This document shows, in pieces, positions 29,542 to 40,632 of a DNA stretch of 62,553 nucleotides; position 1 is the first letter of the stretch, and each line of letters starts with the position of its first letter. Made by a program: the position numbers and the translations under genes. The notes under the pieces were generated by a model. It was not told the DNA's origin and searched no databases. It was given only the letters and a program-made list of their open reading frames with translations. Origin of the DNA: Desulfuromonas sp. (GTDB taxonomy: Bacteria > Desulfobacterota > Desulfuromonadia > Desulfuromonadales > Desulfuromonadaceae); NCBI GenBank assembly GCA_002869685.1, contig PKUE01000025.1, positions 1-62,553 of the forward strand, read 5' to 3'.

Positions 29542-29567
29542 TCCATTTTCCTGAGCGTGATAAACAT

Positions 29568-29598
29568 GAGGGGGACCTTTTACTAGGGTCCCCTTTAT
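29568..29598 (+). terminator. Terminator after frr
   Basis: GGGGACC (29571-29577) pairs with GGTCCCC (29587-29593), followed by TTTATT. It separates the translation genes from the envelope genes uppS-cdsA-dxr-rseP. Confidence 0.75.
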
Positions 29599-29752: not shown

Positions 29753-30457
29753 ATGGCTCTACCTGAACATATAGCTATTATCATGGACGGCAATGGCCGC
29801 TGGGCGCAACAGCGAGGATTGCCGCGCATTGCCGGTCACCAGCAAGGGGTTTCGACAGTTCGTAAGGTTGTTGAGGAGTGTTCCCGATTGGGGATTGGTT
29901 ATTTAACCCTCTATGCTTTCAGTTCTGAAAACTGGGCGCGTCCTGACGATGAAGTTCAATCACTGATGTCGTTGCTGGGTCAGTATCTCGGGACGGAACT
30001 TCCCTTGTTGGTTGAACATCAGATCCGTTTTCGGGTGATTGGTGATCTTGAGAAATTGCCTCAGGCGATTCGTGAATCGCTCAATGAAACCATTGAGCGC
30101 ACACAGCACAACCGTGGTCTGACCCTAACGCTGGCACTTTCCTACGGTGCGCGCGATGAGCTGCTGCGTGCCGTGAAGGCGGTCGCTGAAGAAGTTTCCT
30201 GTGGGAAATATTTCATTGCAGACATAGATGAAGAACGTTTTTCCGAACATCTGGATACCAAAGGGACACCCGATCCTGATCTGTTGATCCGAACCAGTGG
30301 TGAAATGCGGATCAGTAATTTTCTTTTATGGCAGATGGCCTATACGGAATTGTATTTTTGCTCGTGCTTTTGGCCTGATTTTGATGCCGCTGAGCTTAAG
30401 GCGGCCCTGGATGACTATGAGTCCCGCAGTCGTCGGTTCGGTACCGTCAGTTCCTGA
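29753..30457 (+). CDS. uppS: Undecaprenyl diphosphate synthase
   Basis: Adds isopentenyl units to farnesyl diphosphate to make the C55 carrier for peptidoglycan and LPS. The 234-residue protein begins with HIAIIMDGNGRWA, where the aspartate binds Mg2+, and has RTSGEMRISNFLLWQ and the C-terminal WPDF. The frame is open from TTG29633, but homology starts at ATG29753, which has AAAGGGA upstream. The C-terminus is normal length. Confidence 0.95.
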   Translation: MALPEHIAIIMDGNGRWAQQRGLPRIAGHQQGVSTVRKVVEECSRLGIGYLTLYAFSSENWARPDDEVQSLMSLLGQYLGTELPLLVEHQIRFRVIGDLEKLPQAIRESLNETIERTQHNRGLTLTLALSYGARDELLRAVKAVAEEVSCGKYFIADIDEERFSEHLDTKGTPDPDLLIRTSGEMRISNFLLWQMAYTELYFCSCFWPDFDAAELKAALDDYESRSRRFGTVSS

Positions 30458-30490
30458 TTAACGTACCGGTTATCACCAAGGAGAGAGACC

Positions 30491-31279
30491 ATTAAACAGC
30501 GTATCATTACGGCTCTGATTGCATTGCCCGTTGTTCTGTTGCTGACACTGGCCGTTGACACGGTCTGGTTTGCTGTTGCTATATGTGGCGTCAGTGGAAT
30601 TGCATTATGGGAATTCTACACGATGGTATTGCCCCCCAACCGCTTTGTTGAGCAGATTTGCGGAACTGTCAGCGGTGTCTTGTTTGTGGTGGTCACTTCT
30701 TTTTACTCCCTCCATTCACTCCAGTATATGAGTGTCGTTTTTATCCTTCTGGCCCTGATATTTCTGGCGCGTTTCCAGGATCTCTATCGTGTGATTCACG
30801 AAATGGGTCTGGTTGTGACCGGCTGGTTGTATATACCGCTGCTGATGAGTTTTTTTGTGGCGCTTCACGCTATGGAGCATGGTCGGGTTTGGGTGCTGAT
30901 GGTGCTGATGATGACCATGGTTTGCGATTCTGGAGCCTATTTTGTCGGGACGGCTTTGGGGCGGCATCGGCTCTATCCGCAAATCAGTCCGAAGAAAAGT
31001 ATTGAAGGTGCTGTTGGCGGGCTGGTGTGCAGTATTTTAAGTGCCGTACTGGTGATCCCCTGGCTCATTGCCGAGATCACGTGGATTGATGCATTACTGG
31101 CTGGTGCCATCGTGGGAATTTTCGGTCAACTTGGTGACCTGTTTGAATCGATGGTTAAACGTAGTGCCGATATTAAAGATTCTGGCAACCTGTTTCCCGG
31201 TCACGGTGGTATGCTGGATCGTCTTGACAGCCTGTTGTTTACGTTTCCCTGTGTTTATCTCTATTTGAGTTGCTGTTAG
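30491..31279 (+). CDS. cdsA: Phosphatidate cytidylyltransferase, apparently starting at ATT
   Basis: Makes CDP-diacylglycerol from phosphatidate and CTP at the inner membrane. The 262-residue protein has about seven membrane helices and the C-terminal signature S-x-KDxxxxxPGHGGxxDRxDS (residues 226-247). The usual CdsA N-terminus (MKQRIITALIALPV type) is found here as IKQRIITALIALPV, with ATT30491 in the initiator position and AAGGAG seven bases upstream. No ATG, GTG or TTG is in frame until TTG30524, which would cut into the first helix. The product feeds the PssA encoded at 39517. The ATT start is inference from alignment and spacing. Confidence 0.88.
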   Translation: MKQRIITALIALPVVLLLTLAVDTVWFAVAICGVSGIALWEFYTMVLPPNRFVEQICGTVSGVLFVVVTSFYSLHSLQYMSVVFILLALIFLARFQDLYRVIHEMGLVVTGWLYIPLLMSFFVALHAMEHGRVWVLMVLMMTMVCDSGAYFVGTALGRHRLYPQISPKKSIEGAVGGLVCSILSAVLVIPWLIAEITWIDALLAGAIVGIFGQLGDLFESMVKRSADIKDSGNLFPGHGGMLDRLDSLLFTFPCVYLYLSCC

Positions 31280-31290
31280 GAAGTGCGGTA

Positions 31291-32451
31291 ATGATGAAAA
31301 CGATCAGTGTGCTCGGTTCTACCGGATCCATTGGCGTCAGCACTCTTGATGTGATAGCCGAATTTCCAGAACAGTTTCGGGTTGGCGCGTTAAGTGCCGG
31401 GCGACAAATTGATCTCCTGGCGCAACAGGTTCGTCGCTTTAAACCTGATATTGTCTCGATTGCCGACCCGGATCAAGTCCCGTTATTGCTGGAGCTGCTG
31501 GTCGATTGTCCCGTTGAAATTGTCGTGGGAGTCGAAGGGGCGGTTCGATGTGCAACCCATCCTGATGTGTCGATGGTTGTCTCTGCGATCGTGGGAGCTG
31601 CTGGTTTGGTGCCGACTCTGGCGGCTATTGAAGCGGGTAAAGATATCGCTCTGGCCAATAAAGAGACGTTGGTCACTGCCGGGGCGCTGGTGATGGACGC
31701 AGTTAAGCGCAACGGCGTGCAGCTTCTGCCGGTCGACAGTGAACATTGTGCGATCTATCAGTCCCTGCAAGGGCATCAATGCCGAGATATCCGCCGACTG
31801 ATCCTTACGGCATCCGGTGGCCCATTTCGTGAATTCAGTGAAGAGCAGTTAGCCCATGTGACTCTGGAGCAGGCGTTAGCGCATCCGAACTGGTCGATGG
31901 GGGCCAAGATTTCCATTGATTCAGCGACCATGATGAACAAAGGGCTTGAAGTGATTGAGGCCTACTGGCTGTTTAATGTTCCCGCAGAACAGATTGATGT
32001 GCATATTCATCCTCAGAGCATTGTTCATTCGATGGTTGAATATGTCGATGGTTCGGTGGTTGCTCAGTTGGGAATTCCTGACATGAAAACTCCCATCGCC
32101 TACGCATTGTCGTGGCCGGATCGGTTACCATTGTCGTTACCTCCACTTGATTTATGTCAGATCGCCGACTTGAGCTTCAGTCGCCCGGATTTGAAGCGGT
32201 TCCCCTGTTTGCAACTGGCCTATGATGCTCTTAAGGCCGGAGGGTCCGCACCTATTGTTCTCAACGCCGCCAACGAGGTGGCTGTTGAAAGTTTTCTGCA
32301 GCAAAAGATTCACTATCTGGATATTTCATCCGTCATTCGTCAGGTTCTGGATCAACATTGTGTTGAGCCGGTTCATCAGGTTGATGATGTGTTGCATCAT
32401 GACCGCCAGGCGCGCCGGATTGCGCGGCAACTGATCGAACAGAGGATCTGA
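31291..32451 (+). CDS. dxr: 1-deoxy-D-xylulose-5-phosphate reductoisomerase
   Basis: Second enzyme of the MEP isoprenoid pathway; yields the precursors that UppS elongates. The 386-residue protein has the NADPH loop GSTGSIG (from residue 9), LANKETLVTAG, and the metal/substrate segment VDSEHCAI. AGGAAG lies seven bases before ATG31291; a longer open frame from 31270 would overlap cdsA. It stands in the standard cdsA-dxr-rseP order. Confidence 0.97.
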   Translation: MMKTISVLGSTGSIGVSTLDVIAEFPEQFRVGALSAGRQIDLLAQQVRRFKPDIVSIADPDQVPLLLELLVDCPVEIVVGVEGAVRCATHPDVSMVVSAIVGAAGLVPTLAAIEAGKDIALANKETLVTAGALVMDAVKRNGVQLLPVDSEHCAIYQSLQGHQCRDIRRLILTASGGPFREFSEEQLAHVTLEQALAHPNWSMGAKISIDSATMMNKGLEVIEAYWLFNVPAEQIDVHIHPQSIVHSMVEYVDGSVVAQLGIPDMKTPIAYALSWPDRLPLSLPPLDLCQIADLSFSRPDLKRFPCLQLAYDALKAGGSAPIVLNAANEVAVESFLQQKIHYLDISSVIRQVLDQHCVEPVHQVDDVLHHDRQARRIARQLIEQRI

Positions 32452-40362: not shown

Positions 40363-40380
40363 TTCAAGAAGTTTGAAAAA

Positions 40381-40632
40381 GCGGTGAAGAGGAGTAGTAA
40401 CTCCGCTCCCTGTTTTAGAGAGTCGGCGGGTGGTGCAAGCCGATACAGGGTAAGAGTGAACTCGCCTTGGAGCTGTCACGGTGAAGCCGGATGGTCTAGT
40501 CGTGATCGTGAGCCTGCGTAAAGGGATGAATGAGGGTTTCCGAGTCAGGAAACCGAAACAGGGTGGTACCGCGTGAGCTTCAGGCTCTCGCCCCTGCGTA
40601 ATCAGCAGAGGCGGGAGCCTTTTTTATTTTTC
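40381..40632 (+). promoter_or_regulatory. Leucine T-box leader (transcription attenuator) of leuA
   Basis: A T-box RNA that reads uncharged tRNA-Leu. Stem I contains AGTA (40396-40399), the distal AGAGAGTCGGCGGGTGGTGCAAGCC element, and the specifier loop GTGAACTCG with specifier CTC at 40461-40463, a leucine codon. The antiterminator T-box AACAGGGTGGTACCGCG (40557-40573) carries TGGT for the tRNA 3' end. A 15-bp terminator stem (40582-40596 with 40606-40620) and T-run follow. Uncharged tRNA should favour antitermination and leuA expression. Confidence 0.95.
40582..40632 (+). terminator. Regulated terminator of the leuA T-box
   Basis: AGGCTCTCGCCCCTG pairs with CAGAGGCGGGAGCCT with G-U wobble pairs, followed by TTTTTTATTTTT. 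It competes with the antiterminator formed by the T-box sequence immediately upstream. Confidence 0.92.

Follow-up and report, generated by a model that had tools for sequence, protein, structure and literature searches.

A conserved non-AUG start codon of cdsA in Desulfuromonas and its class, probably a selected limit on CdsA synthesis

The start of cdsA, the gene for CDP-diacylglycerol synthase, was studied in a genome of Desulfuromonas sp. (assembly GCA_002869685.1), in the stretch of 62,553 nucleotides (contig PKUE01000025.1, positions 1 to 62,553, forward strand) that is here called the window. The gene order is uppS, cdsA, dxr, and the codon in the starting position of cdsA is ATT. The features of the locus, in window coordinates, are the following.

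30491..31279, + strand: cdsA coding sequence (CDP-diacylglycerol synthase), an open frame of 262 residues from the AUU start to a TAG stop
30491..30493, + strand: ATT (AUU) initiation codon of cdsA, a codon conserved in relatives
30478..30483, + strand: Shine-Dalgarno AAGGAG of cdsA, with seven bases (30484-30490) between it and the ATT
30455..30457, + strand: TGA stop codon of uppS, which lies in the cdsA frame and ends 33 nt upstream of the ATT
30524..30526, + strand: TTG, the first downstream standard start codon in the cdsA frame, without a Shine-Dalgarno and rejected as the start
29754..30457, + strand: uppS (undecaprenyl diphosphate synthase), upstream neighbour of cdsA, its start set at ATG29754 by the motif M-A-L-P-E-H-I-A-I-I-M-D-G-N-G-R-W, which we take to mark the UppS start region
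31291..32451, + strand: dxr, downstream neighbour of cdsA, with an ATG start, used as the control gene

By its sequence the product of 30491..31279 is CdsA, with the enzyme activity predicted. It matches PF01148 at 230.9 bits (cut-off 24), the sole match to this family in the genome, and the alignment to two solved structures of CdsA, 4q2g and 4q2e, covers query residues 1-258 (E 1.1e-30 and 7.5e-30), from the ATT-encoded residue onward; the family match, to PF01148 and to 4q2g, is full-length. The sequence-only reading of this DNA had placed ATT30491 in the methionine position before K-Q-R-I-I-T-A-L, and the codons that follow it (AAA CAG CGT ATC ATT ACG GCT CTG) bear this out, as does AAGGAG at 30478-30483, which ends seven bases before the ATT as had been said. 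Between the in-frame TGA of uppS and the ATT the frame reads TTA ACG TAC CGG TTA TCA CCA AGG AGA GAG ACC. It was also claimed that no standard start codon precedes TTG30524 in frame and that this TTG has no ribosome-binding site, and we found the same: the cdsA frame contains no ATG, GTG or TTG from TGA30455, the stop of uppS, up to TTG30524, which lies eleven codons downstream of the ATT, and no Shine-Dalgarno is present in TCATTACGGCTCTGATTGCA, the stretch preceding TTG30524. Because AAGGAG lies 7 nt upstream, no standard codon is available further upstream and TTG30524 lacks a ribosome-binding site, ATT30491 is confirmed, as far as sequence can tell, as the sole plausible cdsA start. The computed pairing energy of its Shine-Dalgarno with the anti-Shine-Dalgarno is -8.5 kcal/mol, and the energies range from -8.5 to -12.7 kcal/mol across ten members of the genus.

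A comparison of start codons among relatives had been proposed beforehand, with ATT throughout to be taken as a sign of selection, and ATT throughout is what the genus gave: in all ten genomes the homologous codon is ATT and an AGGAG-type sequence ends 6-7 nt before it, while CdsA of the other nine members is 53-71% identical to the window protein. Two sister genera start with GTG in 4/4 genomes, one (G012) at the same codon and three (G010, G011, G013) one codon earlier. We extended the comparison to the order (118 genomes searched, 116 with a cdsA match) and to the class (117 genomes, 57 of them outside the order). The start was read in 74 of the 116 and in 31 of the 57, altogether 105 genomes from 25 families, and each of the 70 genera returned is represented by one genome or more. 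One cdsA match of these searches (G044:C4:118865-119638) carries an internal TAG. The starts read were ATT in 66, ATC in 30, ATA in four, GTG in five and ATG in none, so a codon other than ATG, GTG or TTG stands at the homologous N-terminus in 100 of the 105. Thus the claim that cdsA initiates at AUU is backed by ATT in the whole genus and by AUU, AUC or AUA (together AUH) in most of the class genomes read. Within the order (n=74) K-Q-R is preceded by ATT in 60 genomes, with ATC as the start in nine and GTG in five (those of the sister genera and G056). Outside it (n=31) ATC prevails (21, against six ATT and four ATA), and the start is one residue nearer (I-K-R) in 29 and as in the order in two. 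The base preceding the AUH start is C in 71/100 class loci versus 62/164 ordinary starts of genome G008, a comparison not corrected for kinship.

Conservation across species goes beyond drift, although it is partly accounted for by an overlap with the preceding gene. In 43 of 104 loci (uppS was not found in the remaining one, L101) the third base of the cdsA start lies within the uppS stop UAA (AT[TAA]A), so that mutation to AUG would abolish that stop there. All but two of these 43 loci are in the own order, four of them in the own genus. This partial, non-regulatory constraint exists in the class, is absent in the window and went unseen in the sequence-only reading. Where an AUH start does not overlap the uppS stop (56 loci), its third base is C in 30, T in 23, A in three and G in none, and a FastTree tree built from partial UppS and CdsA proteins gives at least 15 changes of this base by parsimony; when five loci with an implausibly distant uppS stop are dropped, 51 loci and 13 changes are left. 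The non-overlapping loci of the genus are the window and G001, G005, G007, G008 and G009, of which G005 is among the five doubtful ones.

A strong Shine-Dalgarno at good spacing accompanies the AUH starts. The median pairing energy is -9.3 kcal/mol at AUH loci (n=100; -8.6 without and -10.8 with the uppS overlap) versus -5.3 at GTG loci (n=5), and ordinary genes of G008 reach -5.9 with ATG (n=116), -4.4 with GTG (n=23) and -2.95 with TTG (n=18). Among the 101 loci scored the Shine-Dalgarno lies 6-7 nt before AUH in 75, and only two have no exact 4-nt motif in range. The contrast of strong Shine-Dalgarno at AUH and weak at GTG starts fits selection on the total initiation rate.

Orthologues of the genome pair G008/G009 were screened first in about 400 kb of each genome (311 pairs) and then in about 800 kb (601 pairs, the 311 among them), out of main replicons that measure 3.7 to 3.9 Mb; an AUH start lacking a Shine-Dalgarno would escape this design. 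The first screen gave 17 hits with infC first and cdsA second, and the second gave 13 column hits with infC first and cdsA fourth, the others being by inspection inside longer genes or in doubtful frames. Convincing non-standard starts among the 601 pairs were those of infC (ATA) and cdsA (ATT) only, and a general AUU habit of the genome is ruled out by these two overlapping screens of one genome pair. In the control gene dxr a standard start was in frame in all 44 loci found (37 ATG, 7 TTG; one of 45 stretches was without dxr), by the lenient rule that any standard codon up to 21 codons upstream of the motif was accepted. The infC start is ATA in 35 of 36 class loci read (L056-L067, L204-L227), the locus of G017 (L219) being without it; the loci read were the best-scoring matches and not a random sample. 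The IF3 encoded in the genome is identical to that of E. coli at 89/180 positions and retains most of the residues that we take to be fidelity sites of E. coli IF3, namely Y70, Y75, R99, R116, R131, R133, E134, R147 and R168.

Outside the class, 17 of 20 other families of the phylum have a standard codon at most 13 codons upstream in the cdsA frame, and the other three have none there. Two of these three, f31 and f75, were followed further. In one genus of family f31 cdsA starts with CTG behind GGAGG in 3/3 genomes, the other f31 loci read having a standard start in 12/13, and in family f75 CTG is the start in 1/7 read. The cdsA of two genomes of two other phylum families (L151, L318) has no in-frame upstream standard start. 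Among more distant relatives ATG was found in nine of the 12 looked at (of 23 found), and cdsA of E. coli starts with TTG (UUG). Judged by these codons the drift of cdsA to a weak start took place on more than one occasion, and an AUH start of cdsA conserved over many genera was seen in this class only, among the groups compared.

As for the surroundings of the gene, a strong terminator-like hairpin at 29566-29598 (+), between frr and uppS, suggests that uppS-cdsA is transcribed separately from rpsB-tsf-pyrH-frr. No consensus match to a promoter was found upstream of cdsA, and no RNA structure at the uppS-cdsA junction beyond that of shuffled sequences (z -0.47). Elsewhere in the window an Rfam T-box leader (RF00230) lies at 40375-40598 (+; 127 bits).

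A known weak start is the AUU of infC in E. coli, which goes together with the autoregulation of IF3. Like cdsA here, it has AUU followed by AAA, a GGAGG-type Shine-Dalgarno upstream and a weak codon that has long been conserved. The difference is that the infC product rejects its own start, a direct feedback, whereas CdsA is a lipid enzyme and any control by IF3 would run one way. Similarly, Binns and Masters reportedly described in 2002 an AUU start in E. coli pcnB, a different gene, but like cdsA a chromosomal one whose expression would be limited by the codon. To these two precedents, named in the sequence-only reading, further published non-canonical bacterial starts can be added (sigR, ccpN, cvfC1). 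According to the available part of the Streptomyces study, the GTC start of sigR is repressed by IF3, which makes it a precedent for IF3 control beyond infC, and it resembles cdsA in its non-canonical codon, extensive Shine-Dalgarno and conservation in a genus (PMC5472188). It differs in being a GTC codon, in belonging to a sigma factor of one genus and in having been tested experimentally. In S. aureus the conserved AUA start of ccpN and AUU start of cvfC1, both with an extended Shine-Dalgarno, give about 10% of the AUG output in poor medium, as stated in the accessible text (PMC13009471); these belong to a Gram-positive regulator and a small protein, in contrast to an essential membrane enzyme in 70 genera with U, C and A interchanged. 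The E. coli orthologue of cdsA also adjoins uppS and has a weak start, but its UUG is a standard codon that IF3 reportedly tolerates, by the same partly available source as for sigR (PMC5472188). We found no description of a non-canonical cdsA start in the one open-access library searched, from which subscription journals are mostly absent.

It is probable, at roughly three chances in four, that selection maintains the weak AUU start of cdsA and that this start holds CdsA synthesis down, probably by way of discrimination by IF3 as in infC. As far as sequence can tell, AUU30491 initiates cdsA, with two thirds of the initiator anticodon paired and a strong Shine-Dalgarno that positions the ribosome at the AUU, which would make the weak start workable. 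Selection would keep the weak codon: the third base shifts among U, C and A across the class and is never seen as G, and therefore the gene appears to avoid AUG. In the accessible part of the work of Belinky and colleagues, one AUG-to-AUU switch is counted among 61,358 ancestral AUG starts and selection keeps AUG (PMC5622118). Lasting avoidance of AUG, as in cdsA, therefore calls for an explanation. Output from the AUU would be below that from AUG, and the likely purpose of the weak start is a low level of CdsA, whose reaction commits phosphatidic acid to the making of phospholipids. Expression of cdsA would probably track the stringency of IF3, as for infC, which is AUA-started in these genomes. 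That the weak start throttles CdsA production is plausible because there is no AUG in 105 genomes and the Shine-Dalgarno is weaker in the five GTG genomes. By analogy with the S. aureus AUA and AUU starts and with sigR, as far as the available parts of those reports go, lower output and IF3 dependence would be the likeliest mechanism at the cdsA AUU.

Several observations weigh against this reading. Some standard codon lies upstream in the open frame in 32/100 AUH loci. In the 43 loci with the overlap the third base is fixed by the uppS UAA, and the missing AUG there needs no regulation. The missing G counts for less because C-T transitions probably make up many of the third-base changes. The Mann-Whitney p of 3.4e-4 for the difference in Shine-Dalgarno strength between AUH and GTG loci is too optimistic, as it ignores relatedness and the five GTG genomes correspond to about two events on the tree. 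Finally, IF3 departs from that of E. coli at R112 (K), R129 (M), V93 (L), Y107 (F) and E166 (Q).

Among the alternatives, the one that survives best, at somewhat less than even odds, is that AUH and a strong Shine-Dalgarno merely set a certain low rate of CdsA synthesis, the natural variation of IF3 being too small to regulate it. It predicts that weak cdsA starts should recur in different codons, as they do with UUG in E. coli and CUG outside the class. However, a weaker Shine-Dalgarno combined with UUG or GUG would serve equally well, as it does in five genomes, and the long retention of codons that IF3 rejects suggests that these very codons matter. An improbable alternative is that AUU arose from the overlap with the uppS stop (AUUAAA) and persists without a regulatory role, since a third-base change kills that stop. 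The 43 overlapping loci are what it would leave, but the 56 loci without the overlap, the window included, stay AUH without turning to AUG, and outside the order the overlap is missing in 29/31, most of which use AUC, a codon that cannot form it.

It is very unlikely that the true start is elsewhere, be it at a downstream TTG or GTG, at some codon upstream or through a frameshift product of UppS and CdsA, with ATT as an ordinary isoleucine codon. TTG30524 is in frame, and the upstream codons in 32/100 genomes could serve, but no other position is shared across the class, and downstream and upstream starts are rejected on that ground. A standard start is absent from the open upstream frame in 68/100 AUH genomes, in 21/100 that frame is closed within five codons, and the first standard codon downstream is anywhere from 4 to 44 codons away. 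Three genomes (G096, G125, G121) have a TTG two codons upstream of the AUH, but it is 0 or 1 nt past the Shine-Dalgarno, too close for use. The frameshift product is rejected since both the distance and the phase of the uppS stop take many values among the loci, while the Shine-Dalgarno keeps its spacing to AUH in three quarters of the loci. A sequencing or assembly error hiding an ATG, conceivable in a draft of 186 contigs, is refuted by ATT in ten separate genus genomes, three of them in one or two contigs.

A selected weak start may also have a wider meaning, although this is a tentative and rather doubtful extension: cdsA and infC could form an ancient 'initiation-fidelity regulon', in which AUH starts tie phospholipid synthesis throughout the class to the IF3:ribosome ratio, with membrane growth following the capacity for translation initiation. 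Gene finders restricted to ATG, GTG and TTG would probably misplace the cdsA start in this class. Few bacterial genes are known with starts that IF3 rejects, and in the partly available sources the known cases, infC aside, are each confined to one species or one genus. In cdsA, an essential gene of membrane-lipid synthesis, a start of this kind persists across 25 families despite many changes of its third base, and hence the avoidance of AUG itself looks selected. By its gene, age and breadth cdsA stands out among the non-canonical starts, and it would be a clean test case for initiation fidelity linking lipid synthesis to translation.
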